A DNA stretch of 64,000 nt from Bryoerythrophyllum caledonicum (taxonomy: Eukaryota > Streptophyta > Bryopsida > Pottiales > Pottiaceae), in NCBI GenBank assembly GCA_963971425.1, contig OZ020514.1, forward strand, positions 11,475,218 through 11,539,217, written 5' to 3'. Below are positions 26,741 to 58,376 of the stretch, in pieces. Both the position numbers and the translations under genes were made by a program. The notes under the pieces are model-generated. The model saw only the letters and a program-made list of their open reading frames with translations, was not told where the DNA came from and made no database searches. The first letter of the stretch is position 1. Each line of letters opens with the position of its first letter.

Positions 26741-26829
26741 TAGACAACGACCATACTGATCAGTATACTGTCCCACTCGATCCCTACAGCGACCGTGCTG
26801 GTCAGCCCACAGACCCCACCGTAACCCGT

Positions 26830-27620: not shown

Positions 27621-27657
27621 ATTTCAATACGACATCCCCTCACAGGACAGCACAAAT

Positions 27658-29313: not shown

Positions 29314-30519
29314 AGAAGGAAGACCGCAAGACAAAAGGTATCATACACATACCATCCCTTCTTATACACAAGACCCACACATTATACAATAGAAGACAAT
29401 ACAAGGTAGAATACTTGATAGCCTACATAGTAGAATACATGGTAGAATACATGGTATTGAACAAAATAGTCTACATGGCACAATATATAAGAAAATACTT
29501 GGCCGTATACACAGACGTACACCCCCTAGGATACACATACTTCAATACATACACCCTACCCTCATGTTGTATTAAAAATAAATACATAAAGTATACCAAA
29601 TATATACTATCTTGCACAAAAATACCTGGTATGAATACTGATACACACACATGTACAATTACGGATACAAATACTGATTTGCATACAGATATAAATACTT
29701 ATCAGAATACGGATACGAATACTAATCTGAATACGAATATAAATACTGATATGTACATCAATACTAATACTGATACATATATAAATACAAGTACTAATAC
29801 CAATACCAATACCCATACGTATGCTAAAATAAAAATGGGGACACGCACTAATATAAACATAAACATAAACACTAGTACTAAGCCAAACACAACTATACAC
29901 ACATACACAAAGACAACTACACACCACCAAAAAATAATAATACACATACACACATACAAAGACAAATATACACAACCAAAAGAAAAGTACAAAACAAAAC
30001 ACCAAAACCACACACAAAAACAAGCAATCCTAAAACAAAATAAAAAATCCCTCCTACTACAAACTACTCATACTCAATGGAGAAGACAAATACACATCCA
30101 CCCTATAGTATACCATGCTACACAAAACAACATAGATCTTCTTACTAGTATTTACTATGTAGCAAGTAGAAAAGACATACACATGCTTTCAAACAAACAC
30201 AACCTCAACAACATAAAAATAATAAAAGCTCTAAAATTCACACAAAAATCAAAAATTATGAAACACAATATCAAACCCACACATTATAAACTTCTACTAC
30301 TTGTAGGCGGAGAATTAGAAATAAATCCGGGACCGTATACGATCAAGTATACAAATACAGCTTCATATACATGTACGGGGACATATACATATATGGATAC
30401 ATATACAAATACATATCAGAATACGGACACAAATACATCTACAAGGTACAGATACAAATACAAGCATAAACACATATACGGAAAAAAATACTAATGTAAA
30501 TACAAATACAAGTAAGGAT
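29314..30519 (+). other. Thr/Asn-rich low-complexity frame and first 2A-like module
   Basis: A frame open up to 30494 encodes Thr-Asn-Thr-Asp-type repeats derived from 'aatactgatac' words. A conserved block with YKLLLLVGGELEINPGP (motif at 30312-30335) follows, then more Thr/Tyr repeats. It ends in TAA in a different frame from the following ORF (30520). In the ancestor it was probably joined to the large ORF, separated here by a frameshift. Confidence 0.55.
30312..30335 (+). other. 2A-like motif 1 (ELEINPGP, degenerate)
   Basis: A Leu-rich lead followed by GG-ELEINPGP. The 2A consensus is D(V/I)ExNPGP. The first Asp is Glu and Val/Ile is Leu, so activity is doubtful. Confidence 0.7.
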
Positions 30520-33500: not shown

Positions 33501-36500
33501 CCCACCCCCACCTCTTCCCTACATCCCTCCTCAAAACCAAAATCAAAACATTAGACCAAACCAAGAAAATACATACATAATCACATGGAATGCCTCCTCA
33601 CTAAACAGTGCCCTTCCTAGCTTACAAACTCTAGTCGCAAACACAGACACACCACCGGCTCTTATAGTTATACAAGAAACAAAACTAACCGCCACAAAAT
33701 CTACAAAATATATACAAAATATATTTCAAGACTATAAACTCATCTTTAACAATACACATGCACTTACAAGATGCATGCAACAAAGGAGACCATACACACC
33801 GGGCCGTGGTGGCCTCCTTACATTAATACACAAAAAATATACATTCCCCGGCAACATCAACAAAATCCCTACTCCAATGCACATATCACCATACATTCAA
33901 ATAATTAAAATCACTAATCACCCACTACAATCGTGGTTAATCTTTCACATGTATATGCCATCCCATCCCGAAGATACTAGATTTATCTTAGATATACAAA
34001 ACACTATTACAACCCATATTAATAATCATCCCAATCATACATACCTATTATGTGGAGACTTCAATAGAGACATAGTGCTAATTGGCCGCCAAAATGGGAA
34101 CCATCACACCCCCCCTCAAAACATTGATTACCAATGGCGCCGCTTCACAGAAAACTTAAACTTCACTTACATCAATACCGATACACAATTCTCTAGACAA
34201 GGTGGCCACAATTATAGTGATTGGAGTCTAATAGATGGATTCTATATAAATACAAACAACAACACACAATACACCTCCACAACAAACAAAGATAGTATTC
34301 TCAATTCGGACCACTCACCCGTACAACTGCACATCCCAAATAACACACTAATTAGTAGAACTCCTACAATCCCAAACAAAGACACTATACGCATACTCAA
34401 CCCCATCCCAAAAACCAACATAGAAAAGTTCAACACAAAATTCTTCGAAGAAAACACCGTACAAATAGACTCCCTCATAAACACTCTTGAAATCAATAGT
34501 CAATTAACACAAGCTCAATGGCAAGAAGCATGCCACTCTCTAGACAAACTCATCAATAAAATCTCTGATACACTAGAACAAACTTGTAGAGCACACCCAA
34601 TACCCCAAATGACAAATAGAACCTCTCAACAAGGCGGGTATCTACCGCGCAAACTTTCTAAAACTTGGAAACAACACTTAACCACATACCATACCATACG
34701 TAAAACCATTAGAATTGTAAAAAACAACCCTCAATGGCGTAACCACCCCATACACAACGAACTACTAAATATGCAACATATCCAATTCCCTACCCCGCCT
34801 CCTCCGGACCTTCCCCATGATACATGGATAAAAGATATCGCGATAATTGCAAAAAATGCCAACATACAAGCCCGGAAAATAATCACAAAATACACAAAAG
34901 AAAACATTAAAAAAGCCATCTCAAAATACAGACAACTATACGAAATCAGCCCCAAAAAAATTAACAAAAAAGTTTTTAAAAACCTTGAATCCCCACCAAT
35001 GGATTGTATCAAAGATCAATATAATAATATTCTAACTAGCCCCGAAGACATTGCGAATGAAATATTCAACCAACAAACAAAAACCAATAGACCAACAGTA
35101 CCAACATGTAATTACCAGCCACAACATACAATAGAATGCACATGTGCAATACGCCAATACCCTTGGCACGACCTAGACGGATATACCCTTGACAAACGGG
35201 GCGAACCAGAAATTCCACTACATAAATACCTCAACAGAGCCACATACGATACATGCCTCCAAAATCTTGGAAATAATAAAGCCCCAGGCCCAGACCGCAT
35301 ACCAAATTCAATACTGAAAAACATGCCTCCAAGATTTCATAAACTACTATTCCTATTCTTTTCTCACTGCTATAAACAAAAACAAATACCAAATTCATGG
35401 AAAACAAGTGCAACAATTCTACTATACAAAAAAGGCGATCCATTCATGCTACCCAATCATAGACCAATTGCACTAGCTAACACAATATATAAGCTTTTTA
35501 CCAGTACACTCACCCACATACTATCCTCATACGGCGAAAAATTCAAAATCCTACATGATAGTCAAGAAGGATTTAGAGCGGAGAGAAGTACCGCACGGCA
35601 AATACAAACTATAATAGCCGCATTAGAAGACGCAAAATTTACTAACCAAGATATATACATACTATACGTGGACTTCAAAAATGCCTTTGGCTCAATTGAT
35701 CATGCCAGACTTCTAGCAATAATGTCAGACCTTGGCTACCCAAAAGAGACAACTACACTTGTTGGAAACATCTATTCCCAATCATCTACTTGCTATATCG
35801 GCGAACACTTTGGGAAAACAAAACCTATACCCATCCAAAGAGGAACTATACAAGGGGACACCCTTAGCCCATACTTATTTATTATATTTTTAGAACCACT
35901 ACTTAGATGGCTAGAAAGAGGCAATAATGGATATACTTTCGGCACATCACAAGTCACAATAAACTCCGCCGCATACGCAGATGACCTAGCCACCATAACT
36001 AACAAAATCAAATCAATCCAAATACAACTCCATAAAATTGATAGATATTGTAAATGGGCTGGCATGGATGTGGGAGTTCCAAAATGTGCGGCTACCGGAT
36101 GCCCAAACAAATCTAAATTGAACCCTACCACTTTCAAAGCCCTAATGCAAACCTCTAACATCAACTACCGCAACCAACCAATCCCTATACTACACCAAAA
36201 CGAACCATACATATACCTAGGTACAAATCTTGTTCCCTCACTAAAATGGAAAATCCAAATCCACACTACAACCACAAAGCTCATCAAACAATGCAAAGAA
36301 CTAACAACATGCCCAGCCACCATGAAACAAAAAATAAAAATGGTTGATACCGTACTACGCCCAGGTGTGGCATACAGTTTCTACGGTGTACCATACTCTA
36401 TGCCAGCTATCAAAAAACTTGATAAAAAAATAATAGCCATACAAAAAACCATATGTGGATTACCAAAATGTATGTCAAACGCAATAACCCAACTACCACA

Positions 36501-39500
36501 TAACCTATTTGGACTTGAAGCTTTCTCCCTCAAAAACGCATACCTCCGATGTATAGGCGAACAACTGCAAAATGCTCTAAACGATAAAGGAAGACTTGGG
36601 AAAATATATAATGGATTAACTCACTATGTCCTTGCCCAATATGGTGGCGCTGAAAACATACCGAGAATTAAAAAAAGTGACTGCATAAGATCACCAATAA
36701 CACGAACATTCTTCTTATTAAAACATATAGCTAAAGCCCATCTTAAAAGTACGCTCCCGAACTTCCTCACTAATCCTACGACACTAGAAATACTATGGCG
36801 CCAAGAAACATTAAATCATAACACACTCAATGCCCAACTCTCCCAAAAGCTTCTACAAAAACTCCTCTCAAAAAATATTTTTGAACTAAACCAAATCATC
36901 TTACCTAACGGTACACACATCATGAACAATGAGGACTTCAAAACCTACCACTTCACCCCATCTAAACTAATAAAGAGTGCCCTAAGTGTTGCTAAACAAC
37001 TATTTTGCCACATAACATGCCCCACTATATGTCATACTCCTTGCAACATACACCCATACTCTCATACACTTAAAGATCCATTCATCACCTTCAACAATAA
37101 CATCATCCCAAGAAATATTCCCACACCAACCAATCCCCCTAACCCTCCACATACATACCACCCCCGCCCCCCAACATACATCCCCAAAAACCCTACAAAA
37201 TACCCCATTAATAATATCATAAACCATAAACATATCCAACACACAGACACAAATAACATGCAAAATACCTACACAAAATATCTATGCCAATGGCAACACA
37301 ATGATAATACATACAATAAATGGCTCCCCCAAAGAGACCTTTTTCCACGGCATGACACCAGTACCTCCACACATAACACTGAAAAATTAAAACAATACTA
37401 CCTAAAGATCCAAAACAAAATATACTCAGATATCATCCTTGCCCACCATCCACAAGAACAATCCTCAGACTCAAGGTCCGTAACGCCACCCATAATTATC
37501 CCACTCTTAAACATCTACACAACAAAATGCAACCCCGAAAATGATATCCTTACATCCTCAAACACAATTCAAATAGATAACAATCAAGCACATCTATACG
37601 AAGAAAACGGCCGACATTTACACACCATACCCATTACCCGGCTCCAATGGTTATGGAACCAATATCATACAAAATTACAATCCCCTACAAACATTGAACC
37701 AACAACCCAACCCTTTGAAACCGAACTAATATGGCTTTACCAAAGATATAAATATCGAATACCAAAAACTGACCCCCTCAAAAATGCGCAATACACAATA
37801 CCCACCCCCATTTTAGACTCACTGATATCATCCTTTAACATTGAACACTCATACTTTTCCTCCCCGATTACATGTCCTACCAAACTAAATAAATTCTACT
37901 CACCGTACGAAAGAGACAAAATAATTGGATCCCTAGGCAAGGCCTTTGAACACAAATGGATCGGAAATGGAATAGCTCACCCCCACAACGAGGAAGACAT
38001 AGAACAAGCCATACATTGGGCTAGACTTGCCGCCAAACACGATCCAAATAACACAAAAACAATCATCGTCACACCGAACAACAATTGGTACCAAAACAAC
38101 AACCAACATTCAAACCCATTCCCAGATTCCCACATCATTGCATTATTCGAAGCAGACACAATACCATACGAAGAACCTAATATCCCACCCGAGCTAAAAA
38201 AACCCCGAATAGAGCCATCTACATTACAAATACTATGCGTCCATCATCAAAATCAAAACCTGGGCTCCCTAGAACAACTTGCAGAACTTACCTCCATATC
38301 AGACAATCTAGACATACAACGACCATACACAAAACCGGCCCCACCAACACCCATACAAACCCCCGTAAACAAAAGTAAAAAATGGTCAAAATTAAACTAT
38401 GATAACAACACATTAAACTACTCCGTCATACCTCCCCCTCTCCCAGACTACCCAACTCATACCACACCAAAATTTAACCCCGCATACAGTTATTACACCG
38501 ACGGCTCCTTTAAACCACCGGAACAAATTAGCCCGGGCTCTTGGCGAAGAGAAAAAGCTGGCTATGGCATATATAATGCTACCAAAGAAATTAAACTAGC
38601 CAAAAGACTCCATGGACTACAAAATATCCTCAGAGCAGAACTCATGGCCATTCACAAAACACTACAAATCATTACAACAAAATACAAAAATGAACCTGCA
38701 CATATATTCACCGATTGCATAAATGCACTCTACCTACTAAACACTCAAATAACACACCCAACCCTTCACAACAGTCACCCCGACCAAACCATACTAACAT
38801 CAATGGTACAAATGTTACAAAAACGTACACAAATCACAACCCTTCACAAAGTCAGAGCCCATGCCAACATTGATGGCAACGAACAAGCAGACAAACTTGC
38901 AAAAGAAGGCCGAGAAAAAACACACAAAAAAGCCAAAGACCCTCACGAACATGCTCATGCCACCCCATACTACTTTCAAAAAGAAGATTGGCCTTCCAAA
39001 GAAGATACCCCCGACAAAGGCCCAATTAGATTTCTGGGCAAATATCTCAAAAAACAAGACCTCTACAACAACCTGGATACAATCTCAGAAAATATTCCTA
39101 ACATAGAAAAATGGACTAACAATAACGACATAGACAATGAACTCTCTACAAACTTTTGGAAAAACCCCATCATCTCAGACTCACAAATAACGTGCCTCAT
39201 TAAATTCCGTACGGGTCAATACATGGGAAACGCTTGCAAACAACTCTTCTTTGGAATAGAAAGATTCCCATCCATAACATGCCCCATATGCCCCTCAACG
39301 GACCCCGACACATGGCTACATGTGCTACTCAAATGCCAAAACCACCACATACACTCTCTAATTGTTAAAAGACATAACAAAGCGGTATGGGAAGTCCGAA
39401 AACTAATCACCTCCTACAATAAATCGAGATGTTTCATACTTATGAACGCCGGCACTTTTAATAGCAATCCACAAGAAAACACGGTCCCCCCATGGCTACT

Positions 39501-39732
39501 TCCATGCTCATGTATGACCCAAAGATGTCATTGCAATGCTAGGTTCAAACCGGACATTCTTTGTGTCAAAGGTTTACCATACAACGACCCACCACCCGAG
39601 AACACCAACCAAGACTACACCATTCAATTCATCGAATTTACATATTGCAACGATAGATTCTCCCCGGAAACAATACAAGACAAAATAGATAAATACCAAC
39701 CCCTCATAGACGACATCATTGCCCTCGGCTAG
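30520..39732 (+). CDS. inner LINE ORF2: 2A-like, APE endonuclease, RT, RNase H, REL-like (truncated by TAG)
   Basis: 3070 codons from an ATG. The first 801 residues are Lys/Asn- and Thr-rich with basic repeats and two 2A-like motifs. The second (32902-32925) is canonical and should release a 2269-residue enzyme starting with Pro. Enzyme motifs follow in order: APE endonuclease (TWNASS about 33580, IQETKL, CGDFNRD about 34055, SDHSPV about 34306); RT (NKAPGPDRIP about 35275, DFKNAFGSID, GTIQGDTLSP, YADD at 35974-35985); a chromodomain-like piece (about 37210-37420); RNase H (YTDGS about 38494, RAELMA, FTDC, DGNEQAD); CPIC...H...C; and a PD...EFTYC...K-KYQ region (about 39547-39690). A TAG at 39730-39732 replaces the Trp codon of the outer copy and cuts the last 74 codons. 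Coding strand is A/C-rich and G-poor. Confidence 0.85.
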   Translation: MDTDTDTGINTQTRTYQPLQKPIYKIERMIIIIYYFSHKLRKNSKKKSIKTKIKNKRNKRKDGIKINNRRKKKISIITTYNKIGNNINENNHKFFVIKIHKGRRDSKPKNHQKARNTRMAKNRKMKESKKGYNKLNRKKIDIYKISEVLIRASNIKNKITKMERICKKKRKGKVENHYHKKKNKKNITRNSSTKNRKCSLRNSKIRDGKCTKLVMGISYNKNTNVKNISINSSTKNRKCSLRNSKIRDGKCTKLVMGISYNKNTNVKNIAINSSTKNRKSFLRNQKIRDGNCTKLVMGINNNKNTIRKNIAKNSNTKNRICFLRNAKITDGKLTKLVMRNKNDRVKINREDRDNKRVQIKNRNWNINYMDKWKINSNIKNYIYKVGESLRLNSRNLMRECRIIKIGGGIHVSPAGWAPKAAKIDFLKIEILIKVRIYTNLIEININLFLEIIVLDKLGLERNLLENSFFQYTGTYTDTYTDTYTDTYTDEYTYKYTDTNTGMYINTNTYTCTNANTNTNSGTCTHTNTNTNTNIDTDTNTKTKTVTYTNTNIQKNTNIIPHKTTYTHTKTTTHHQRNTYIYIHTYKDKHTQSKKHKYQSHIQKQKILKQNKKPIYYKLLILIGGDMETNPRPMPNILKRHPASHKKYTKTYFIPNTNTNTKTNNCTNHKVYNNTAYEKKDLKATLKTNINPHTNSLKHNSYICTRTKTTKVKYNQFYIHPYSTKTKTTTKNTWTKNKLKTKTTTPTIKINKPTTHTQNTNIHLPPNQQVINNTIKLLKYTTKHIYHKLLLLLGGDIETNPGPMPNILKRHPTPHKKNAKIYFIPNTIKLQPEYEHIAKPFAPFLKNTHTLHHIQNTSHPNIAQYIQQKNTHPPPHILYALIITTHPNIDECNQLLNPQNLNTITWTNTLLQTLLTLQNPPERHIYTPHPYTEFLVDNQNIINHENSIHKRLYDFLHSQDIPPSNDIIKLKFPYLPNNLISESLKCLDPIAEYTHPPPPLPYIPPQNQNQNIRPNQENTYIITWNASSLNSALPSLQTLVANTDTPPALIVIQETKLTATKSTKYIQNIFQDYKLIFNNTHALTRCMQQRRPYTPGRGGLLTLIHKKYTFPGNINKIPTPMHISPYIQIIKITNHPLQSWLIFHMYMPSHPEDTRFILDIQNTITTHINNHPNHTYLLCGDFNRDIVLIGRQNGNHHTPPQNIDYQWRRFTENLNFTYINTDTQFSRQGGHNYSDWSLIDGFYINTNNNTQYTSTTNKDSILNSDHSPVQLHIPNNTLISRTPTIPNKDTIRILNPIPKTNIEKFNTKFFEENTVQIDSLINTLEINSQLTQAQWQEACHSLDKLINKISDTLEQTCRAHPIPQMTNRTSQQGGYLPRKLSKTWKQHLTTYHTIRKTIRIVKNNPQWRNHPIHNELLNMQHIQFPTPPPPDLPHDTWIKDIAIIAKNANIQARKIITKYTKENIKKAISKYRQLYEISPKKINKKVFKNLESPPMDCIKDQYNNILTSPEDIANEIFNQQTKTNRPTVPTCNYQPQHTIECTCAIRQYPWHDLDGYTLDKRGEPEIPLHKYLNRATYDTCLQNLGNNKAPGPDRIPNSILKNMPPRFHKLLFLFFSHCYKQKQIPNSWKTSATILLYKKGDPFMLPNHRPIALANTIYKLFTSTLTHILSSYGEKFKILHDSQEGFRAERSTARQIQTIIAALEDAKFTNQDIYILYVDFKNAFGSIDHARLLAIMSDLGYPKETTTLVGNIYSQSSTCYIGEHFGKTKPIPIQRGTIQGDTLSPYLFIIFLEPLLRWLERGNNGYTFGTSQVTINSAAYADDLATITNKIKSIQIQLHKIDRYCKWAGMDVGVPKCAATGCPNKSKLNPTTFKALMQTSNINYRNQPIPILHQNEPYIYLGTNLVPSLKWKIQIHTTTTKLIKQCKELTTCPATMKQKIKMVDTVLRPGVAYSFYGVPYSMPAIKKLDKKIIAIQKTICGLPKCMSNAITQLPHNLFGLEAFSLKNAYLRCIGEQLQNALNDKGRLGKIYNGLTHYVLAQYGGAENIPRIKKSDCIRSPITRTFFLLKHIAKAHLKSTLPNFLTNPTTLEILWRQETLNHNTLNAQLSQKLLQKLLSKNIFELNQIILPNGTHIMNNEDFKTYHFTPSKLIKSALSVAKQLFCHITCPTICHTPCNIHPYSHTLKDPFITFNNNIIPRNIPTPTNPPNPPHTYHPRPPTYIPKNPTKYPINNIINHKHIQHTDTNNMQNTYTKYLCQWQHNDNTYNKWLPQRDLFPRHDTSTSTHNTEKLKQYYLKIQNKIYSDIILAHHPQEQSSDSRSVTPPIIIPLLNIYTTKCNPENDILTSSNTIQIDNNQAHLYEENGRHLHTIPITRLQWLWNQYHTKLQSPTNIEPTTQPFETELIWLYQRYKYRIPKTDPLKNAQYTIPTPILDSLISSFNIEHSYFSSPITCPTKLNKFYSPYERDKIIGSLGKAFEHKWIGNGIAHPHNEEDIEQAIHWARLAAKHDPNNTKTIIVTPNNNWYQNNNQHSNPFPDSHIIALFEADTIPYEEPNIPPELKKPRIEPSTLQILCVHHQNQNLGSLEQLAELTSISDNLDIQRPYTKPAPPTPIQTPVNKSKKWSKLNYDNNTLNYSVIPPPLPDYPTHTTPKFNPAYSYYTDGSFKPPEQISPGSWRREKAGYGIYNATKEIKLAKRLHGLQNILRAELMAIHKTLQIITTKYKNEPAHIFTDCINALYLLNTQITHPTLHNSHPDQTILTSMVQMLQKRTQITTLHKVRAHANIDGNEQADKLAKEGREKTHKKAKDPHEHAHATPYYFQKEDWPSKEDTPDKGPIRFLGKYLKKQDLYNNLDTISENIPNIEKWTNNNDIDNELSTNFWKNPIISDSQITCLIKFRTGQYMGNACKQLFFGIERFPSITCPICPSTDPDTWLHVLLKCQNHHIHSLIVKRHNKAVWEVRKLITSYNKSRCFILMNAGTFNSNPQENTVPPWLLPCSCMTQRCHCNARFKPDILCVKGLPYNDPPPENTNQDYTIQFIEFTYCNDRFSPETIQDKIDKYQPLIDDIIALG
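31080..31545 (+). repeat. 123-bp tandem repeat encoding a basic 41-residue unit (inner copy)
   Basis: About four units with a 123-bp period (the agtac anchor recurs at 31093 and 31216) encode STKNRK-C/S-LRN-KI-DGK-TKLVMG. The period is a multiple of three, so the frame is kept. Net charge is strongly positive, which suggests nucleic-acid binding. Confidence 0.8.
32392..32415 (+). other. 2A-like motif 2 (DMETNPRP, degenerate)
   Basis: It is preceded by YYKLLILIGG and followed by MPNILKRHP, the same flanks as motif 3. Arg replaces the essential Gly of NPGP, so skipping should be lost. Confidence 0.75.
32902..32925 (+). other. 2A-like ribosome-skipping motif 3 (DIETNPGP, canonical), inner copy
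   Basis: KLLLLLGG-DIETNPGP followed by an in-frame ATG matches the 2A consensus D(V/I)ExNPGP, with the usual Leu-rich lead. The break would fall between Gly (32920-32922) and Pro (32923-32925), just ahead of the endonuclease-RT part. Function is inferred from the motif. Confidence 0.85.
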
Positions 39733-40167
39733 AATGTGGACCCCCTTATTGTTATCACATCCGGCGCTCGTGCCACCACCTTTATCCCATCTATGAAAAC
39801 TCTCGAAGATACCTTCAAGATATCCATTGATACAATTAAAACTACCTTTAAAAATATCAACACCATCTCTATTCAACATGCCATGTCTATTTTACTGCAT
39901 AAACGCAAAATCGAAAACAACCAAGTCCTCCCTGATAGGCAAGATCCCCCTTAGGAACTTCGCCACTCTGTCTCTTCCTGATTGGCTGCCTGTTTGGTTT
40001 TGTTTGTTGTTGTTTAGTTAGTTTGGTCGTGGTTGGTCGTTGTCGGTTGGTTTCTGGCTACTCGTTACATAGTGTCTACCTTCGAAAGGGGGAAGTAGTT
40101 CCAGTTCGCTAATTCCTTGTCCGGTGGGCATGGTCTTAGCAATGGAACGAACAGACACTTTATTCAC

Positions 40168-40190
40168 GCCGGTTCCCTTCGGGAACTGGC
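40168..40190 (+). other. 3'-terminal stem-loop of the inner LINE
   Basis: gccggttccc-ttc-gggaactggc forms a 10-bp stem with one G-T/U pair and a 3-base loop, followed by gttcttcttcttc to the element end. It probably marks the RNA for the element's own reverse transcriptase. Confidence 0.75.
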
Positions 40191-40203
40191 GTTCTTCTTC
40201 TTC

Positions 40204-40215
40204 TGGTTCCATAGG
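40204..40215. repeat. right 12-bp target-site duplication of the inner LINE
   Basis: Second copy of tggttccatagg; the outer element's ORF1 resumes directly after it. Confidence 0.92.
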
Positions 40216-40701
40216 CAGGAAGGGGGGAAGCACAATGGTAGTGCTAATGTGCAACTTATTAATCCCATTATCTACAGGAAACTGCTAAACAAAACATTCA
40301 CAATTGGTAGTCACCACGTAGAAATTGCTCCTCACCGTAGAAGTCTTGAAGGCATTGCACCCCCCAACCCCTCCCTGGTCGAGAAATGGGGTTTCAACGA
40401 CATCAACAAGGCCCTAGTCAACACCGTGGATTCAATCAAGGTCACACCCACCCCTGCCGGCATCACCAGGTCGGAAATGGCAGCCATCATGGAAGCAGGT
40501 AACCAGAGACTACGCAAGGAGCTATCTACTCTTCGAGAAGACATCATCAAGGAAACACGAGAGTATACCAACAATGCCACCAATGAGCTCCGCACCAAAT
40601 TCACCAATGTGGAGAGTTTGATGGCCTCCACATTACTAGCATTACAAGATATCTCGAGGTCCAAGCTTCCCGCCCTAGGAGATCCGACAAACGTGGATTG
40701 A
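40216..40701 (+). pseudogene. ORF1 of the outer LINE, C-terminal part
   Basis: It continues the frame left at 25175: QEGGK, HNGSANVQLINPIIYRKLL, APHRRSLEG, then a charged helix-rich tail (RKELSTLREDIIKETREY) typical of a coiled coil, ending in TGA at 40699-40701. It aligns with 28855-29313 of the inner copy at clearly reduced identity. Apparent codons before 40204 in this frame belong to the inner element's 3' end. Confidence 0.85.
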
Positions 40702-41599
40702 CCACGGACCACAGACAAAGTTTCCACCAACATGGAACTTTGTGGTGGATTGGTAATTTGACCTCCTCTACACTTATCACCCCTACTCATAGTTATCCCT
40801 CTATCACCATCATAGTTGTCATTTTGGCCACTGTCATACCACCATCTCAACTTCTCTCTCTAGTTTTATCTCACAAGTCATCTATGTTACCTCTACGTCC
40901 TCATATGTCTATTGTCATATTTCTCCTCCTAAACTATTATGATAGGTCCTCCTCAATAGATCCACCGCACCTCTTAGATGCACCCACCTCCACACTTCTC
41001 TACACTTACCCCCACAATATCTACTATACTTTTTGCAACTCGTTGATAGAAATCTACCTTATAGATACATCTCCCCCCCTCCTCCCCCAACATTTAGTAA
41101 CCTTCCCCTCCCCCACCATAGTCTTCTCCTTCTCTAGAGTTATTGGAAAAATCGCATGTATCACACACATACATAGATACAAGCCTCGGACCAACAAACT
41201 CTCCTACATTCTAGGACTCCTTGTTTCCTCGTATTCTCTTATGAATTTTACTCCTAATACATACACACTTTGTCCACACAAGTGTATATGGAACACATAC
41301 CTCCTTCGGGAAACCACATACAAACTACACTCAATACCAAAGATTGCACACCTACCACCAACAAAGGGCAACTCTACCCTCACAAAAAACACATTGAACT
41401 CCCACAAACATACTCAAAACACACACCACATCCCTTGGGTAAACACACACACTACATACACATCTCACAAACATACTTACCAACCACAACATATTGAACA
41501 TATTGAGACACATATTAATACAAACAGACACAAGAATACACATACAAATACACATACAAATACACATACAAATACAAAATCAACAACATATCATGAAAG

Positions 41600-41630
<31 letters not shown>

Positions 41631-43983
41631 GTTGAATACATACAATCAAAAAAGAACAAAACAAAATACCGAAGCCGCATACAAAAAACTCCAAAACAAA
41701 ACAAGAAACACACTCACTACAAGCTGCTAATACTACTTGGAGGGGACTTCAAAACCAAAATAAAAAATAAAAGGAATAAGAGAAGAGATGGAATTAGAAT
41801 AAATAATAAAAGAAAAGTAAAAATAAGTATCATAACTACATATAACAAAAAAGGAAACAATACTAATAAAAACAATAATGGAAATTTTGTAATAAAGATA
41901 AATAATGGTAGAAGGGAATCAAAACCCAAAAACTATCAGAAGATAAGGAATATCAAAATGGCTAAAAATAGGAAAAACAAGGAGAGTAAAAAGACATATT
42001 ATAAATTAAAAAGGAAGAAGATAGATATTTATAAATTTTCAAAAGTTTCAAACAATAAGAACATAGGAACAAACAGCAACACAAAAAATAGTATATCCTT
42101 TTTAAGGAAATCCAAAATAAGGGATGGAAAATTACCTAAATTAATAATGGGAATTAATTATAATAAGAATACAAATATTAAGAACATAACTATAAACAGC
42201 AGTACTAAAAATAGAATATGCTTCATAAGAAAATCAAAAATAAGGAATGGAAAATTAACCAAAGTAGTAATGAGAAGTAATTATAATAAGAATTCAAATG
42301 ATAAGGAAATAGCTATAAACAGATGTACTAAAAAAAGAATTTGCTTCCTAAGAAAATAAAAAAAAAGGGATGGAATTTTTACCAAAGTAGTAATGAGAAT
42401 TAATTATAATAAGAATACAAATATTAAAAACATAACTATAAACAGCAGTACTAAAAATAGAATATGCTTCCTAAGAAAAACAAAGGTAAGGAATGGAAAA
42501 TTAAGCAAAGTAGCAATGAGAATTAATTATAATATGAATATAAATATTAAAGAAATAGCTATAAACAGCAGTACTAAAAATAGAATATGCTTCATTGAAA
42601 AATCAAGAATAAGGGATGAAAATTTCACCAATGTAGTAATTTATATTAATTATAATAAAAATACAAAGAGTAAAAGAATAGCTATAAATAACAGTACTAA
42701 AAATAGAATATGCTTCATTGAAAAATCAAGAAGGGATGAAAATTTCACCAAAGTAGTAATTTATATTAATTATAATAAAATTACAAATAGTAAAAGAATA
42801 GCTATAAACAGCAGTACCAAAAATAGAATTACTAAAAATAGAAATTCTAATAAAAGTAAGAATATACTTGAATCTGATTGAAATAAATATCAATCTGTTT
42901 TTAGAAATCATAGTTTTAGACAAAATATGTTTCGAAAGAAATCTTTTAGAAAACTCATTATTTCAATATTCGGGTATATATACTGATACGTATACTGATA
43001 CTTATACTGATACATACACCGGTGAATATACTTATAAATATACTGATACAAATACTGGTATGTATACTGATACACATACTGGTATGTATGTAAATACAAA
43101 TACTTATACTTATACAAATGCAAATACCTATACAAATAGCGGTACGTGTACTCATACGAATACTAACACAAATACTAACAAAGATACTGATACAAATACC
43201 AAGACAAAAACCGTGACACACACTAATACAAACATACAAAAGAATACTAATATAACACCACATAAAACTACATACACACACACAAAGACAACCACACACC
43301 ATCAACGAAACACATACATATACATACACACATACAAAGACAAACACATACAATCAAAAAAACACAAATACCAAAGCCACATTCAAAAACGAAAAATTCT
43401 AAAACAAAACAAAAAACCCATCTACTACAAACTACTAATATTAATTGGAAGAGACATGGAGACTAACCCCAAGATCCATGTCGAACATATTAGAAAGACA
43501 CCCCGCTTCGCACAAAAAGAATACCAAAACATATTTCATACCAAATACTAATACAAACACCAAAACAAACAATTGTACAAACCACAAAGTATATAATAAC
43601 ACCGCGTATGAAAAAAGGACTTAAAAGCCACTTTAAAAACCAACATAAACCCACATACAAATAGTCTTAAACATAATAGTTACACATGCACACGGACAAA
43701 AACAACCAAGATAAAATACAACCAATCATACATACATCCATACACTACTAAAACAAAAACAACCACAAAAAACACATGGACTTAAAATAAACTAAAGACG
43801 AAAACAACTACACCTACTATAAAAATAAATAAACCCACAACTCACACACAAAATACAAACATCCACCTACCCCCAAACCAACAAGTCATTAATAACACAA
43901 CAAAGCCTTTAAAATACACCACTAAACATATATACCACAAACTTCTACTACTTCTAGGAGGAGACATTGAAACCAACCCGGGA
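40702..43983 (+). pseudogene. outer LINE: low-complexity and basic region, frame-broken
   Basis: It corresponds to 29314-32925 of the inner copy. Open pieces are 40698-42359, 42393-42881 and 42868-43551, separated by stops and frame changes. The first 2A module is destroyed: GGDF is joined directly to KTKIKNKRNKR (41740-41775), so the stretch that separates these parts in the inner copy is missing. The second module reads DMETNPKI (43453-43476). A TAA near 43783 replaces Lys of the inner copy. The piece just before 43987 is open and holds the intact third motif. Confidence 0.75.
42060..42840 (+). repeat. 123-bp tandem repeat, outer copy, about six units
   Basis: Same basic unit as at 31080-31545 (aaacagcagtactaaaaata anchors about every 123 bases), but with more units and a few frame-breaking changes. 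The copy number differs between the two elements. Confidence 0.8.
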
Positions 43984-43986
43984 CCC
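43963..43986 (+). other. 2A-like motif 3 (DIETNPGP, canonical), outer copy
   Basis: Identical octapeptide and Leu-rich lead to the inner copy, directly before the ATG of the enzymatic ORF. In this copy a stop lies about 60 codons upstream, so ribosomes would reach it only by starting within that short stretch. Confidence 0.85.
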
Positions 43987-46900
43987 ATGCCCAATATACT
44001 AAAAAGACATCCTACATCACACAAAAAAAATGCCAAAATCTACTTTATACCTAATACCATAAAACTCCAACCAGAATATGAACACATTGCAAAACCCTTC
44101 GCACCATTTCTAAAAAACACACATACATTACACCACATACAAAACACTTCCCACCCAAATATTGCCCTATACATACAACAAAAAAATACGCATCCACCAC
44201 CCCACATCTTATATGCACTAATAATCACTACTCATCCAAACATAGATGAATGTAACCAACTTCTAAATCCACAAAATTTGAACACAATTACATGGACTAA
44301 TACACTCCTACAAACCTTACTAACCTTACAAAACCCACCAGAACGACACATTTACACTCCACACCCCTATACTGAATTCCTAGTAGACAACCAAAATATT
44401 ATAAACCATGAGAACTCAATACATAAAAGACTATACGACTTCTTACATAGTCAAGACATACCACCCTCAAATGATATAATAAAACTAAAATTCCCTTACC
44501 TCCCTAACAACCTCATAAGTGAATCACTAAAATGTCTGGACCCTATAGCAGAATACACCCACCCACCCCCACCTCTTCCCTACATCCCTCCTCAAAACCA
44601 AAATCAAAACATTAGACCAAACCAAGAAAATACATACATAATCACATGGAATGCCTCCTCACTAAACAGTGCCCTTCCTAGCTTACAAACTCTAGTCGCA
44701 AACACAGACACACCACCGGCTCTTATAGTTATACAAGAAACAAAACTAACCGCCACAAAATCTACAAAATATATACAAAATATATTTCAAGACTATAAAC
44801 TCATCTTTAACAATACACATGCACTTACAAGATGCATGCAACAAAGGAGACCATACACACCGGGCCGTGGTGGCCTCCTTACATTAATACACAAAAAATA
44901 TACATTCCCCGGCAACATCAACAAAATCCCTACTCCAATGCACATATCACCATACATTCAAATAATTAAAATCACTAATCACCCACTACAATCGTGGTTA
45001 ATCTTTCACATGTATATGCCATCCCATCCCGAAGATACTAGATTTATCTTAGATATACAAAACACTATTACAACCCATATTAATAATCATCCCAATCATA
45101 CATACCTATTATGTGGAGACTTCAATAGAGACATAGCGCTAATTGGCCGCCAAAATGGGAACCATCACACCCCCCCTCAAAACATTGATTACCAATGGCG
45201 CCGCTTCACAGAAAACTTAAACTTCACTTACATCAATACCGATACACAATTCTCTAGACAAGGTGGCCACAATTATAGTGATTGGAGTCTAATAGATGGA
45301 TTCTATATAAATACAAACAACAACACACAATACACCTCCACAACAAACAAAGATAGTATTCTCAATTCGGACCACTCACCCGTACAACTGCACATCCCAA
45401 ATAACACACTAATTAGTAGAACTCCTACAATCCCAAACAAAGACACTATACGCATACTCAACCCCATCCCAAAAACCAACATAGAAAAGTTCAACACAAA
45501 ATTCTTCGAAGAAAACACCGTACAAATAGACTCCCTCATAAACACTCTTGAAATCAATAGTCAATTAACACAAGCTCAATGGCAAGAAGCATGCCACTCT
45601 CTAGACAAACTCATCAATAAAATCTCTGATACACTAGAACAAACTTGTAGAGCACACCCAATACCCCAAATGACAAACAGAACCTCTCAACAAGGCGGGT
45701 ATCTACCGCGCAAACTTTCTAAAACTTGGAAACAACACTTAACCACATACCATACCATACGTAAAACCATTAGAATTGTAAAAAACAACCCTCAATGGCG
45801 TAACCACCCCATACACAACGAACTACTAAATATGCAACATATCCAATTCCCTACCCCGCCTCCTCCGGACCTTCCCCATGATACATGGATAAAAGATATC
45901 GCGATAATTGCAAAAAATGCCAACATACAAGCCCGGAAAATAATCACAAAATACACAAAAGAAAACATTAAAAAAGCCATCTCAAAATACAGACAACTAT
46001 ACGAAATCAGCCCCAAAAAAATTAACAAAAAAGTTTTTAAAAACCTTGAATCCCCACCAATGGATTGTATCAAAGATCAATATAATAATATTCTAACTAG
46101 CCCCGAAGACATTGCGAATGAAATATTCAACCAACAAACAAAAACCAATAGACCAACAGTACCAACATGTAATTACCAGCCACAACATACAATAGAATGC
46201 ACATGTGCAATACGCCAATACCCTTGGCACGACCTGGACGGATATACCCTTGACAAACGGGGCGAACCAGAAATTCCACTACATAAATACCTCAACAGAG
46301 CCACATACGACACATGCCTCCAAAATCTTGGAAATAATAAGGCCCCAGGCCCAGACCGCATACCAAACTCAATACTGAAAAACATGCCTCCAAGATTTCA
46401 TAAACTACTATTCCTATTCTTTTCTCACTGCTATAAACAAAAACAAATACCAAATTCATGGAAAACAAGTGCAACAATTCTACTATACAAAAAAGGCGAT
46501 CCATCCATGCTACCCAATCATAGACCAATTGCACTAGCTAACACAATATATAAGCTTTTTACCAGTACACTCACCCACATACTATCCTCATACGGCGAAA
46601 AATTCAAAATCCTACATGATAGTCAAGAAGGATTTAGAGCGGAGAGAAGTACCGCACGGCAAATACAAACTATAATAGCCGCATTAGAAGACGCAAAATT
46701 TACTAACCAAGATATATACATACTATACGTGGACTTCAAAAATGCCTTTGGCTCAATTGATCATGCCAGACTTCTAGCAATAATGTCAGACCTTGGCTAT
46801 CCAAAAGAGGCAACTACACTTGTTGGAAACATCTATTCCCAATCATCTACTTGCTATATCGGCGAACACTTTGGGAAAACAAAACCTATACCCATCCAAA

Positions 46901-49900
46901 GAGGAACTATACAAGGGGACACCCTCAGCCCATACCTATTTATTATATTCTTGGAACCACTACTTAGATGGCTAGAAAGAGGCAATAATGGATATACTTT
47001 CGGCACATCACAAGTCACAATAAACTCCGCCGCATACGCAGATGACCTAGCCACCATAACTAACAAAATCAAATCAATCCAAGTACAACTCCATAAAATT
47101 GATAGATATTGTAGATGGGCTGGCATGGATGTGGGAGTTCCAAAATGTGCCGTTACCGGATGCCCAAACAAATCTAAATTGAACCCTACCACTTTCAAAG
47201 CCCTAATGCAAACCTCTAACATCAACTACCGCAACCAACCAATCCCTATACTACACCAAAACGAACCATACATATACCTAGGTACAAATCTTGTTCCCTC
47301 ACTAAAATGGAAAATCCAAATCCACACTACAACCACAAAGCTCATCAAACAATGCAAAGAACTAACAACATGCCCAGCCACCATGAAACAAAAAATAAAA
47401 ATGGTTGATACCGTACTACGCCCAGGTGTGGCATACAGTTTCTACGGTGTACCATACTCTATGCCAGCTATCAAAAAACTTGACAAAAAAATAATAGCCA
47501 TACAAAAAACCATATGTGGATTACCAAAATGTATGTCAAATGCAATAACCCAACTACCACATAACCTATTTGGACTTGAAGCTTTCTCCCTCAAAAACGC
47601 ATACCTCCGATGTATAGGCGAACAACTGCAAAATGCTCTAAACGATAAAGGAAGACTTGGGAAAATATATAATGGATTAACTCACTATGTCCTTGCCCAA
47701 TATGGTGGCGCTGAAAACATACCGAGAATTAAAAAAAGTGACTGCATAAGATCACCAATAACACGAACATTCTTCTTATTAAAACATATAGCTAAAGCCC
47801 ACCTTAAAAGTACGCTCCCGAACTTCCTCACTAATCCTACAACACTAGAAATACTATGGCGCCAAGAAACATTAAATCATAACACACTCAATGCCCAACT
47901 CTCCCAAAAGCTTCTACAAAAACTCCTCTCAAAAAATATTTTTGAACTAAACCAAATCATCTTACCTAACGGTACACACATCATGAACAATGAGGACTTC
48001 AAAACCTACCACTTCACCCCATCTAAACTAATAAAGAGTGCCCTAAGTGTTGCTAAACAACTATTTTGCCACATAACATGCCCCACTATATGTCATACTC
48101 CTTGCAACATACACCCATACTCTCATACACTTAAAGATCCATTCATCACCCTCAACAATAATATCATCCCAAGAAATATTCCCACACCAACCAATCCCCC
48201 TAACCCTCCACATACATACCACCCCCGCCCCCCAACATACATCCCCAAAAACCCTACCACATACCCCATTAATAATATCATAAACCATAAACATATCCAA
48301 CACACAGACACAAATAACATACAAAATACCTACACAAAATACCTATGCCAATGGCAACACAATGATAATACATACAATAAATGGCTCCCCCAAAGAGACC
48401 TTTTTCCACGGCATGACACCAATACCTCCACACATAACACTGAAAAATTAAAACAATACTACCAAAAGATCCAAAACAAAATATACTCAGATATCATCCT
48501 TGCCCACCATCCACAAGAACAATCCTCAGACTCAAGGTCCGTAACGCCACCCATAATTATCCCACTCTTAAACATCTACACAACAGAATGCAACCCCGAA
48601 AATGATATCCTTACATCCTCAAACACAATTCAAATAGATAACAATCAAGCACATCTATACGAAGAAAACGGCCGACATTTACACACCATACCCATTACCC
48701 GGCTCCAATGGTTATGGAACCAATATCATACAAAATTACAATCCCCTACAAACATTGAACCAACAACCCAACCCTTTGAAACCGAACTAATATGGCTTTA
48801 CCAAAGATATAAATATCGAATATCAAAAACTGACCCCCTCAAAAATGCGCAATACACAATACCCACCCCCATTTTAGACTCACTAATATCATCCTTTAAC
48901 ATTGAACACTCATACTTTTCCTCCCCGATCACATGTCCTACCAAACTAAATAAATTCTACTCACCGTACGAAAGAGACAAAATAATTGGATCCCTAGGCA
49001 AGGCCTTTGAACACAAATGGATCGGAAATGGAATAGCTCACCCCCACAACGAGAAAGACATAGAACAAGCCATACATTGGGCTAGACTCGCCGCCAAACA
49101 CGATCCAAATAACACAAAAACAATCATCGTCACACCGAACAACAATTGGTACCAAAACAACAACCAACATTCAAACCCATTCCCAGATTCCCACATCATT
49201 GCATTATTCGAAGCAGACACAATACCATACGAAGAACCTAATATCCCACCCGAGCTAAAAAAACCCCGAATAGAGCCATCTACATTACAAATACTATGCG
49301 TCCATCATCAAAATCAAAACCTGGGCTCCCTAGAACAACTTGCGGAACTTACCTCCATATCAGACAATCTAGACATACAACGACCATACACAAAACCGGC
49401 CCCACCAACACCCATACAAACCCCCGTAAACAAAAGTAAAAAATGGTCAAAATTAAACTATGACAACAACACATTAAACTACTCCGTCATACCTCCCCCT
49501 CTCCCAGACTACCCAACTCATACCACACCAAAATTTAACCCCGCATACAGTTATTACACCGACGGCTCCTTTAAACCACCGGAACAAATTAGCCCGGGCT
49601 CTTGGCGAAGAGAAAAAGCTGGCTATGGCATATATAATTCTACCAAAGAAATTAAACTAGCCAAAAGACTCCATGGACTACAAAATATCCTCAGAGCAGA
49701 ACTCATGGCCATTCACAAAACACTACAAATCATCACAACAAAATACAAAAATGAACCTGCACATATATTCACCGATTGTATAAATGCACTCTACCTACTA
49801 AACACTCAAATAACACACCCAACCCTTCACAACAGTCACCCCGACCAAACCATACTAACATCAATGGTACAAATGTTACAAAAACGTACACAAATCACAA

Positions 49901-51015
49901 CCCTTCACAAAGTCAGAGCCCATGCCAACATTGATGGCAACGAACAAGCAGACAAACTTGCAAAAGAAGGCCGAGAAAAAACACACAAAAACGCCAAAGA
50001 CCCTCACGAACATGCTCATGCCACCCCATACTACTTTCAAAAAGAAGATTGGCCTTCCAAAGAAGATACCCCCGACAAAGGCCCAATTAGATTTTTAGGC
50101 AAATATCTCAAAAAACAAGACCTCTACAACAACCTGGATACAATTTCAGAAAATATTCCTAACATAGAAAAATGGACTAACAATAACAACATAGACAATG
50201 AACTCTCTACAAACTTTTGGAAAAACCCCATCATCTCAGACTCACAAATAACGTGCCTCATCAAATTTCGTACGGGTCAGTACATGGGAAACGCTCGCAA
50301 ACAACTCTTCTTTGGAATAGAAAGAATCCCATCCATAACATGCCCCATATGCCCCTCAACGGACCCCGACACATGGCTTCATGTGCTACTCAAATGCCAA
50401 AACCACCACATACACTCCCTAATTGTTAAAAGACATAACAAAGCGGTATGGGAAGTCCGAAAACTAATCACCTCCTACAATAAATCGAGATGTTTCATAC
50501 TTATGAACGCCGACACTTTTAATAGCAATCCACAAGAAAACACGGTCCCCCCATGGCTACTTCCATGCTCATGTATGACCCAAAGATGTCATTGCAACGC
50601 TAGGCTTAAACCGGACATTCTTTGTGTCAAAGGCTTACCATACAACGACCCACCACCCGAGAACACCAACCAAGACTACACCATTCAATTCATCGAATTT
50701 ACATATTGCAACGATAGATTCTCCCCGGAAACAATACAAAATAAAATAGATAAATACCAACCCCTCATAGACGACATCATTGCCCTCGGCTGGAATGTGG
50801 ACCCCCTTATTGTTATCACATCCGGCGCTCGTGCCACCACCTTTATCCCATCTATGAAAACTCTCGAAGATACCTTCAAGATATCCATTGATACAATTAA
50901 AACTACCTTTAAAAATATCAACACCATCGCTATTCAACATGCCATGTCTATTTTACTGCATAAACGCAAAATCGAAAACAACCAAGTCCTCCCTGATAGG
51001 CAAGACCCCCCTTAG
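43987..51015 (+). CDS. outer LINE enzymatic ORF, open to its natural end: APE, RT, chromodomain-like, RNase H, zinc motifs, REL-like
   Basis: 2342 residues from the ATG after the 2A-like motif. Approximate residue positions: APE endonuclease 215-470; RT 790-1080 with YADD near 1017; chromodomain-like YLCQWQ...NKWLPQRDLF near 1440-1490; RNase H 1850-2010 with D-E-D-D set (TDGS, AELMA, FTDC, GNEQAD); CPIC...H...C...RHNKAV near 2115-2150; and a final region with KPDIL (about 2207), IEFTYC (about 2233), K-x3-KYQ (about 2250), GWNVDPLIV and a helical tail. The last part looks like the PD-(D/E)XK endonuclease of algal RT elements. The length is about twice that of common LINE ORF2s. This ORF has no internal stop and keeps the Trp lost in the inner copy. 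Confidence 0.88.
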   Translation: MPNILKRHPTSHKKNAKIYFIPNTIKLQPEYEHIAKPFAPFLKNTHTLHHIQNTSHPNIALYIQQKNTHPPPHILYALIITTHPNIDECNQLLNPQNLNTITWTNTLLQTLLTLQNPPERHIYTPHPYTEFLVDNQNIINHENSIHKRLYDFLHSQDIPPSNDIIKLKFPYLPNNLISESLKCLDPIAEYTHPPPPLPYIPPQNQNQNIRPNQENTYIITWNASSLNSALPSLQTLVANTDTPPALIVIQETKLTATKSTKYIQNIFQDYKLIFNNTHALTRCMQQRRPYTPGRGGLLTLIHKKYTFPGNINKIPTPMHISPYIQIIKITNHPLQSWLIFHMYMPSHPEDTRFILDIQNTITTHINNHPNHTYLLCGDFNRDIALIGRQNGNHHTPPQNIDYQWRRFTENLNFTYINTDTQFSRQGGHNYSDWSLIDGFYINTNNNTQYTSTTNKDSILNSDHSPVQLHIPNNTLISRTPTIPNKDTIRILNPIPKTNIEKFNTKFFEENTVQIDSLINTLEINSQLTQAQWQEACHSLDKLINKISDTLEQTCRAHPIPQMTNRTSQQGGYLPRKLSKTWKQHLTTYHTIRKTIRIVKNNPQWRNHPIHNELLNMQHIQFPTPPPPDLPHDTWIKDIAIIAKNANIQARKIITKYTKENIKKAISKYRQLYEISPKKINKKVFKNLESPPMDCIKDQYNNILTSPEDIANEIFNQQTKTNRPTVPTCNYQPQHTIECTCAIRQYPWHDLDGYTLDKRGEPEIPLHKYLNRATYDTCLQNLGNNKAPGPDRIPNSILKNMPPRFHKLLFLFFSHCYKQKQIPNSWKTSATILLYKKGDPSMLPNHRPIALANTIYKLFTSTLTHILSSYGEKFKILHDSQEGFRAERSTARQIQTIIAALEDAKFTNQDIYILYVDFKNAFGSIDHARLLAIMSDLGYPKEATTLVGNIYSQSSTCYIGEHFGKTKPIPIQRGTIQGDTLSPYLFIIFLEPLLRWLERGNNGYTFGTSQVTINSAAYADDLATITNKIKSIQVQLHKIDRYCRWAGMDVGVPKCAVTGCPNKSKLNPTTFKALMQTSNINYRNQPIPILHQNEPYIYLGTNLVPSLKWKIQIHTTTTKLIKQCKELTTCPATMKQKIKMVDTVLRPGVAYSFYGVPYSMPAIKKLDKKIIAIQKTICGLPKCMSNAITQLPHNLFGLEAFSLKNAYLRCIGEQLQNALNDKGRLGKIYNGLTHYVLAQYGGAENIPRIKKSDCIRSPITRTFFLLKHIAKAHLKSTLPNFLTNPTTLEILWRQETLNHNTLNAQLSQKLLQKLLSKNIFELNQIILPNGTHIMNNEDFKTYHFTPSKLIKSALSVAKQLFCHITCPTICHTPCNIHPYSHTLKDPFITLNNNIIPRNIPTPTNPPNPPHTYHPRPPTYIPKNPTTYPINNIINHKHIQHTDTNNIQNTYTKYLCQWQHNDNTYNKWLPQRDLFPRHDTNTSTHNTEKLKQYYQKIQNKIYSDIILAHHPQEQSSDSRSVTPPIIIPLLNIYTTECNPENDILTSSNTIQIDNNQAHLYEENGRHLHTIPITRLQWLWNQYHTKLQSPTNIEPTTQPFETELIWLYQRYKYRISKTDPLKNAQYTIPTPILDSLISSFNIEHSYFSSPITCPTKLNKFYSPYERDKIIGSLGKAFEHKWIGNGIAHPHNEKDIEQAIHWARLAAKHDPNNTKTIIVTPNNNWYQNNNQHSNPFPDSHIIALFEADTIPYEEPNIPPELKKPRIEPSTLQILCVHHQNQNLGSLEQLAELTSISDNLDIQRPYTKPAPPTPIQTPVNKSKKWSKLNYDNNTLNYSVIPPPLPDYPTHTTPKFNPAYSYYTDGSFKPPEQISPGSWRREKAGYGIYNSTKEIKLAKRLHGLQNILRAELMAIHKTLQIITTKYKNEPAHIFTDCINALYLLNTQITHPTLHNSHPDQTILTSMVQMLQKRTQITTLHKVRAHANIDGNEQADKLAKEGREKTHKNAKDPHEHAHATPYYFQKEDWPSKEDTPDKGPIRFLGKYLKKQDLYNNLDTISENIPNIEKWTNNNNIDNELSTNFWKNPIISDSQITCLIKFRTGQYMGNARKQLFFGIERIPSITCPICPSTDPDTWLHVLLKCQNHHIHSLIVKRHNKAVWEVRKLITSYNKSRCFILMNADTFNSNPQENTVPPWLLPCSCMTQRCHCNARLKPDILCVKGLPYNDPPPENTNQDYTIQFIEFTYCNDRFSPETIQNKIDKYQPLIDDIIALGWNVDPLIVITSGARATTFIPSMKTLEDTFKISIDTIKTTFKNINTIAIQHAMSILLHKRKIENNQVLPDRQDPP

Positions 51016-51236
51016 GAACTTCGCCACTCTGTCTCTTCCTGATTGGTTGCCTGTTTGGTTTTTTTTTTTTTTTTTTTTTTTTCTCGTTAGTTTGGTCGTG
51101 GTTGGTTGTTGTTGGTTGGTTTCTGGCTACTCGTTACATAGTGTCTACCCTCGAAAGGGGGAAGTAGTTCCGGTTTGCTCATTCCTTGTCCGTTGGGCAT
51201 GGTCTTAGCAATGGAACGAACAGACACTTTATTCAC

Positions 51237-51261
51237 GCCGGTTCCCTTGTCGGGAACCGGC
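51237..51261 (+). other. 3'-terminal stem-loop of the outer LINE
   Basis: gccggttccc-ttgtc-gggaaccggc: a perfect 10-bp stem with a 5-base loop, followed by gttcttcttcttcttcc to the end. The stem is kept although loop and one stem position differ from the inner copy. Confidence 0.8.
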
Positions 51262-51278
51262 GTTCTTCTTCTTCTTCC

Positions 51279-51287
51279 GGTTGTCCC
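51279..51287. repeat. right target-site duplication of the outer LINE
   Basis: Second copy of ggttgtccc; pyrimidine-rich host minisatellite continues after it. Confidence 0.75.
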
Positions 51288-58366: not shown

Positions 58367-58376
58367 CTTCTGCTTT

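Follow-up and report, generated by a model that had tools for sequence, protein, structure and literature searches.

A giant LINE in a moss genome with an APE-type endonuclease, a candidate restriction-like endonuclease and a PCIF1/CAPAM-like domain

Long interspersed nuclear elements (LINEs) of the R2 type have no apurinic/apyrimidinic endonuclease (APE) and no RNase H, and they are site-specific. In LINEs that carry an APE together with a 2A peptide, such as L1Tc and elements of sea urchins, the 2A stands directly ahead of the replicase; Odon and colleagues are said to have treated these in 2013. The Dualen/RandI elements of Chlamydomonas were reportedly described by Kojima and Fujiwara in 2005, with a cysteine protease among their features. 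Passages of two papers present Dualen as a LINE that holds both an APE and a restriction-like endonuclease (REL) (PMC4640811, PMC3636483), and a passage of PMC8226300 also cites Dualen/RandI LINEs from Chlamydomonas and other volvocine green algae. Here we describe a LINE from the moss Bryoerythrophyllum caledonicum, found in a stretch of 64,000 nucleotides (the window, C1:11475218-11539217 of a 437-Mb assembly, on which the genome-wide counts below were also made). An open reading frame (ORF) of this window very probably encodes the enzymatic portion of ORF2 from a non-long-terminal-repeat retrotransposon that is giant and was active recently, with two endonucleases, 2A motifs and a PCIF1/CAPAM-like domain that may act at the cap or 5' end of RNA. 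The first-pass annotation of the window had proposed the two endonucleases; the PCIF1/CAPAM-like domain, and the position of the ORF in the second copy of a tandem pair, go beyond it. The features of this second copy, copy B, are as follows.

40204..51277, forward strand: copy B, 5'-truncated within an ORF1, directly 3' of copy A; holds the ORF of 2342 amino acids
43987..51015, forward strand: catalytic part of ORF2, 2342 amino acids, ATG start
44617..45411, forward strand: APE-type endonuclease (Pfam Exo_endo_phos, residues 219-392, above the curated cut-off)
46498..47283, forward strand: reverse transcriptase (RT; RVT_1, residues 838-1099, above cut-off; YADD at residue 1017)
48274..48405, forward strand: tentative chromodomain-like stretch between the RT and the CAPAM-like domain (16.1 bits, under the Pfam cut-off of 25.1)
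48739..49143, forward strand: PCIF1/CAPAM-like domain (PF12237, PCIF1_WW, residues 1585-1719, above the Pfam cut-off)
49039..49050, forward strand: HPHN at the position of the PCIF1 NPPF motif, by local alignment
49546..49974, forward strand: RNase H (Pfam RNase_H, residues 1854-1996, above cut-off; D1859, E1905, D1930 and D1989 in copy B)
50341..50397, forward strand: CCHC zinc knuckle CPIC...H...C, residues 2119-2137
50431..50832, forward strand: REL motifs RHN, KPD, E, K-x2-KY and GAR, residues 2149-2282
50566..50595, forward strand: extra cysteine cluster CxCx4CxC between RHN and KPD

The APE, RT and PCIF1_WW matches exceeded their Pfam cut-offs in both window copies; the RNase H match did so in copy B, the copy for which it was reported. 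The APE motifs that had been read from the letters were located at residues 220 (TWNASS), 250 (QETKL), 377 (GDFNRD) and 461 (SDHSPV). The best Protein Data Bank (PDB) matches of the RT were R2 proteins (E 1e-32), followed by L1 (E 4e-20). A seven-row tree, built without Dualen, Utopia, Tad or I sequences, joined the RT to R2 at 83/92. Two rows of that tree, L003 and L004, are LINE RTs of 25 to 26% identity that a scan of genome_contigs returned from contigs of bacterial metagenome-assembled genomes, presumably eukaryotic contamination; with other loci, they also served as decoys in the motif-pattern search described below. The viral_contigs set gave no useful relatives when queried with the whole ORF, the C terminus, alignments of the RT and the R2 REL, or a VDFKNAF pattern. 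L001 and L002 were rejected as relatives: their matches were spurious, spanning 21 residues, and no related ORF is listed there.

The C terminus was compared with the REL of three R2 chains in the PDB (9nl3, 9nl2 and 8gh6). The order knuckle, RHN, KPD, acidic residue, K-x2-KY and GAR is the same in the ORF as in 9nl3, and K-x2-KY is followed by GAR at a spacing of about 24 residues. The motifs noted on the first pass lie at residues 2149 (RHNKAV), 2208 (KPDIL), 2236 (IEFTYC), 2253 (KIDKYQ) and 2268 (GWNVDP), with the correction that the supposed K-x3-KYQ is in fact K-x2-KYQ. An ordered pattern running from the knuckle through RHN, PD and an acidic residue to K-x2-KY, composed after the R2 chains and the ORF had been viewed, never arose when the C-terminal 303 amino acids were shuffled 200,000 times; in the same shuffles its first half alone occurred once, its second half alone 46 times and the knuckle alone 557 times. 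In a six-frame translation of the window and L001-L031 (686,782 amino acids), each half was found solely in the two window copies, and the knuckle alone 19 times.

Conservation among genomic copies points the same way. The C terminus has 130 scored matches of at least 97% identity in the host genome. We assembled a set of 25 copies: copies A and B, three long copies and 20 loci taken at about every sixth of the 130 rows (row 72, already included, was replaced by row 73). The knuckle, RHN and KPD positions and E2237, K2253, K2256 and Y2257 were unchanged in all 25, including the candidate active-site residues D2210, E2237, K2253 and K2256. A 19-row alignment that includes the REL pieces of L074 and L078, 64 to 72% identical, left C2119, C2122, H2132, R2149, H2150, D2210, E2237, K2256, Y2257 and R2282 invariant with up to two gaps allowed, while K2208, P2209, N2151, C2137 and K2253 vary. 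Some of the departures reflect decay, since L078 and L079 contain stops; the REL of the L080 row comes from a neighboring copy, on the strand opposite to the CAPAM match. The pooled ratio of nonsynonymous to synonymous polymorphism (pN/pS) over the 25 copies is 0.18 for the REL, beside 0.22 for RNase H, 0.15 for RT and 0.21 for APE. The six APE residues checked were unchanged in 19 of 19 covering copies, and the RT residues in 20 of 20.

A number of observations weigh against a dual-endonuclease reading. One of the three R2 chains, 9nl2, itself fails the ordered pattern. A single-sequence hhalign comparison with the R2 REL scored 19.3, where shuffles reached 21.9. With the 19-row profile the score was 20.4, above all 60 column shuffles (maximum, 18.1) and above the CAPAM and RNase H rows (11.2 and 12.8), but the hhalign probability was 2.5% and the aligned region was the knuckle-RHN part only; the KPD half of that profile, at 18.7, stayed just below the best shuffle (18.9). 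Pairwise, the KPD half scored 24 to 29, values that 186 to 287 of 2000 shuffles reached and that other stretches of this ORF surpassed, with up to 30 to 32. In hmmsearch the R2 REL gave about 5 bits, although top-ranked, and the PDB search with the C terminus returned no nuclease. At the second acidic position the element has Glu and the R2 chains Asp, and inserts follow RHN and KPD. Apart from copy B, 9 of the 24 copies have stops in the ORF, that of copy A falling at W2269, so decayed copies are included; in RNase H, E1905 is replaced by K in one copy and D1989 by N in two. An REL established by sequence profile alone was rejected, the scores against R2 being too weak. Because of those scores, the claim rests instead on the ordered motifs, the invariance across copies and purifying selection, and with these the likeness to R2 put forward on the first pass is partly supported. 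From the sequence, we regard the APE plus REL architecture as likely, the REL being a candidate domain recognized by its motifs.

It is unlikely that the REL fold is present but non-cutting, with the APE doing all the cutting and the REL domain only binding target DNA. Target duplications of 10 to 13 bp, such as those described below, are generally compatible with APE elements, and their occurrence in varied targets would suit this alternative, as would the Glu in place of Asp. Against it stands the constancy of the candidate active-site residues D2210, E2237, K2253 and K2256 in all 25 copies.

Between the RT and the RNase H, the PF12237 match reached 36.1 bits in one window copy and 35.7 in the other when the whole ORF was used, over profile positions 8 to 144 of 176, and 39.6 bits (cut-off, 31.1; E 5e-10) in a shorter piece. 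A passage of PMC7641849 assigns the PF12237 region to the CAPAM-like methyltransferase, not to a WW domain. The host genome gave 2614 candidate matches, of which 150 were scored; all 150 lay above the cut-off, the best at 59.2 bits, and 14 control genomes gave none. Each of the 15 scored loci that were examined has sequence of this family's RNase H and REL nearby, the REL in L080 being on the opposite strand. Exactly 3087 amino acids of open frame are shared by 33 of the 150 rows, which indicates very recent amplification, or a very young subfamily.

A local alignment with human PCIF1 places HPHN on NPPF, a motif of PCIF1 according to a passage of PMC8868631. Of the 19 rows, 15 have HPHN at this position, two HPHT (L074 and L078), one HSHN (L046) and one DPHN (L080); NPPF occurs in none. 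A pooled pN/pS of 0.23 places the domain under constraint. We consider it quite unlikely that the domain still methylates RNA adenosines of the element or the host through a noncanonical motif, in counter-defense or in mimicry of host caps. Its homology over most of the profile and its conservation would accommodate such an activity, and a passage of PMC9289625 reports an AlkB N6-methyladenosine (m6A) demethylase, active in vitro, in orchid Gypsy elements. The replacement of NPPF in every row weighs against methylation, and because of it we infer a CAPAM-derived binding domain rather than a writer of N6,2'-O-dimethyladenosine (m6Am). Among the papers listed in literature searches on PCIF1 or CAPAM, no title or start of abstract dealt with a retrotransposon carrying such a domain, which does not amount to proof of absence, since most subscription papers and Repbase lay outside the search.

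It is distinctly improbable that the element is an ordinary APE LINE whose C terminus is the usual Cys/His-rich RNA- or DNA-binding domain, with REL-like motifs by coincidence. According to a passage of PMC10499050, many LINE ORFs have a conserved CCHC zinc finger, and the weak R2 profile scores and the lack of a PDB nuclease match would agree with coincidence. However, the motif chain reaches beyond the knuckle in R2 order, K-x2-KY and GAR included, was never reproduced by shuffling, and has D2210, E2237, K2256 and Y2257 invariant, gaps aside, in the 19 rows under a low pN/pS. That the PCIF1_WW match is due to chance or composition is hardly credible: its pairwise score was equalled by 4 of 1000 shuffles with human and 1 of 1000 with zebrafish PCIF1, and the PDB search gave an E of 0.26, but SYFSSPITC...GSLG is colinear with CFASPLNC...GSRG and the match recurs above cut-off at all scored loci and in no control genome.

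The 3' end of the element in copy B has the following features.

51016..51263, forward strand: 3' untranslated region; the stretch 51140-51279 folds with a z score of -5.9, and a terminal 12-bp hairpin lies at 51235-51263
51264..51277, forward strand: (TTC)n tail, the 3' end of the element

In the first eight loci studied, copy B included, TTC tails are followed by differing flanks without exception, and the hairpin is whole in seven, one arm being absent in L033. A fixed target site was rejected, since the flanks differ among copies. Among the 20 sampled loci the tails are mostly TTC repeats, with poly-T in L047. Four of the six 5'-truncated copies in this sample are bounded by target duplications of 10 to 13 bp (L047, L050, L052 and L065, the last overlapping the element start by about 6 bases); the other two, L060 and L063, have no target duplication. 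By eye, L050 and L052 seem to be inserted within other copies. Together, 5' truncation, 3' tail and target duplications form the signature of target-primed reverse transcription.

A 2A sequence immediately precedes the catalytic part.

43942..43986, forward strand: 2A/StopGo-like motif LLLLLGGDIETNPGP, in frame and immediately upstream of the ATG

The motif GGDIETNPGP fits the StopGo consensus given in a passage of PMC12846837, and (V/I)-E-x-N-P-G-P is found in frame ahead of the catalytic part. In copy B the 2A frame is closed 67 codons upstream of the ATG. Three long copies on C7, C2 and C6 have ORF2 frames of 3757, 3686 and 3587 codons and ORF1 frames, from stop to stop, of 1412, 1322 and 767 codons, respectively, and in all three GGDIETNPGP precedes the catalytic Met. 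A degenerate NPRP copy of the motif is present on C7 and C2, an MVTNPRP copy on C6 and a further GGELEINPGP on C7; recurring as it does in the three long copies, NPRP may be a dead 2A. The C7 copy measures about 15.6 kb between the first codon of its ORF1 frame, taken in place of a mapped 5' end, and its 3' end. The size of about 15 kb, the RNase H and the 2A-like motif noted on the first pass are thereby confirmed. By pattern, 13 of the 20 sampled loci hold the catalytic Met, that of L052 belonging to a neighboring copy. Eleven of the 13 have an intact (G/S)GDIETNPGP; the motif is degenerate in L054 and cut short in L061. The remaining loci comprise five 5'-truncated copies and L056 and L058, which do not fit the pattern.

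Copy A, directly upstream of copy B, retains the longer N-terminal part.

25600..28887, forward strand: ORF1 of copy A, closed by a TGA at a point where the frame of copy B continues (by-eye comparison)
29310..30494, forward strand: ORF upstream of the copy A ORF2, with the further 2A motif GGELEINPGP
30520..39732, forward strand: ORF2 of copy A, 3070 amino acids, with NPRP and NPGP 2A motifs in frame
40108..40204, forward strand: 3' terminus of copy A, carrying the hairpin and a TTC tail

From 29310 to 32925, ELEINPGP, DMETNPRP and DIETNPGP follow in series, spaced by Thr/Asn- and Lys-rich segments. That the N-terminal extension of copy A is open by chance was rejected: it spans 802 codons, and 300 dinucleotide shuffles gave open runs of at most 115. 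It contains 123-bp tandem repeats, open in copy A (31049-31537) and broken in copy B (42049-42829). No Pfam protease was found in ORF1 of two long copies, one ORF2 extension and the scanned window ORFs, though a divergent one could escape such a search.

The two window copies are 98% identical over the 3' 8.4 kb and at most 79% further 5', and 42 synonymous and 26 nonsynonymous substitutions separate them, a ratio of 0.17. In the same manner, the long copies and copy A share a common 3' 8 to 9 kb of 94 to 98% DNA identity, and their ORF1 proteins, with that of an extra window ORF at 24216, are just 32 to 55% identical (the comparison concerns L040-L045, window 24216-28887 and 40204-40700). Near-identical 3' parts joined to diverged ORF1s suggest that the 3' end has recently spread, or been converted, across older and diverse 5' parts; the diverged ORF1s mean either that the elements are mosaics or that ORF1 is swapped. 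Identity to copy B rises from 72-92% to 96-100% in L056 and from 77-88% to 91-98% in L058, in both cases some 3.5 kb into the ORF. Both are chimeras whose catalytic ORF combines a diverged 5' half with a 3' half that is much closer to copy B.

A scheme for the element can be built on the observed domains, tails, target duplications and conservation. The long ORF2 would be translated with ribosome skipping at the in-frame 2A motifs, which would free the enzyme as a chain of its own in the order APE, RT, CAPAM-like domain, RNase H, zinc knuckle and REL. The RT would recognize the structured 3' untranslated region, the terminal hairpin and the (TTC)n tail. One nuclease would nick the target, whose 3' end would prime reverse transcription, and the other would cut the second strand at a distance of 10 to 13 bp, which would account for the short target duplications; our guess is that the APE cuts first. 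RNase H would remove the RNA. The CAPAM-like domain may bind the capped 5' end or cap-proximal RNA without methylating it, and cap binding may aid uptake of the element's own RNA or completion of the 5' end.

Elsewhere in the window, glyoxal oxidase, BTB and bestrophin genes surround the LINE array, and a decayed plant-type L1 at 933-4992 retains APE, RT and zf-RVT (below cut-off) in several frames; this content is in keeping with a streptophyte host but is no proof of one. Inverted, diverged repeats at 17500-19680 and 52160-54850 (67 to 77% DNA identity in pieces) flank the array and are possibly another transposon. Short pieces at 58272-58368 and 63574-63707 correspond to the 3' end of the element alone, the first flanked, as seen by eye, by a CTTCTGCTTT repeat. 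These fragments are either severely truncated insertions or short interspersed nuclear elements with a common tail.

A broader and tentative proposal, which we consider possible though doubtful, is that a large LINE lineage fixed a CAPAM-type domain, its active site replaced, in a dual-endonuclease replicase as a reader of the cap or 5' end, and that one replicase module was joined to many strongly diverged ORF1 modules. If true, LINEs would have a novel means of dealing with the 5' end of their RNA, with ORF1 swapping as an evolutionary mode, and the domain would link a family of cap-modifying enzymes to LINE replication. According to a passage of PMC4640811, dual-endonuclease LINEs have served as an argument for an origin of APE elements from REL elements; how the two nucleases divide their labor would become testable in a relative that is young and abundant and keeps both of them under selection.

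Among described systems, Dualen/RandI resembles the moss element in combining APE, RT and RNase H, with the APE N-terminal to the RT, and probably in a REL C-terminal to the RT, recognized here by its motifs. The microsatellite-like 3' tail is also shared: (TTC)n in the moss, and (ATT)n or (CTATTT)n in eight RandI families of green algae according to a passage of PMC3747384. The element differs from Dualen/RandI, as the cited passages present it, in its CAPAM-like domain between RT and RNase H, its 2A motifs and its size of about 15.6 kb, and also in that Pfam found no cysteine protease in the element ORFs scanned. Because the RT joins R2 in a tree that holds no Dualen sequence, and because no protease was found, we use Dualen-like only as a working label for how the element would function, not as proven membership. 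R2 LINEs (R2Tg and R2Bm) share the order of REL motifs after the CCHC knuckle and have the closest RT among solved structures, whereas copies of the moss element sit in varied flanks. Compared with 2A-carrying APE LINEs, the element has a candidate second endonuclease and a series of as many as three 2A-type motifs, of which NPRP is degenerate. The PF12237 region is like that of the PCIF1/CAPAM m6Am methyltransferase but has HPHN or a variant for NPPF and is fused into a retrotransposon polyprotein. Passages of PMC5890265 describe DNA methyltransferase retrotransposons in charophytes and dinoflagellates. Like these and the orchid AlkB elements, the moss element is a plant-lineage retroelement that captured a nucleic-acid-modification domain; unlike them, it is a LINE with a CAPAM-type domain, and it would join the few modification-related domains found in plant-lineage retrotransposons.

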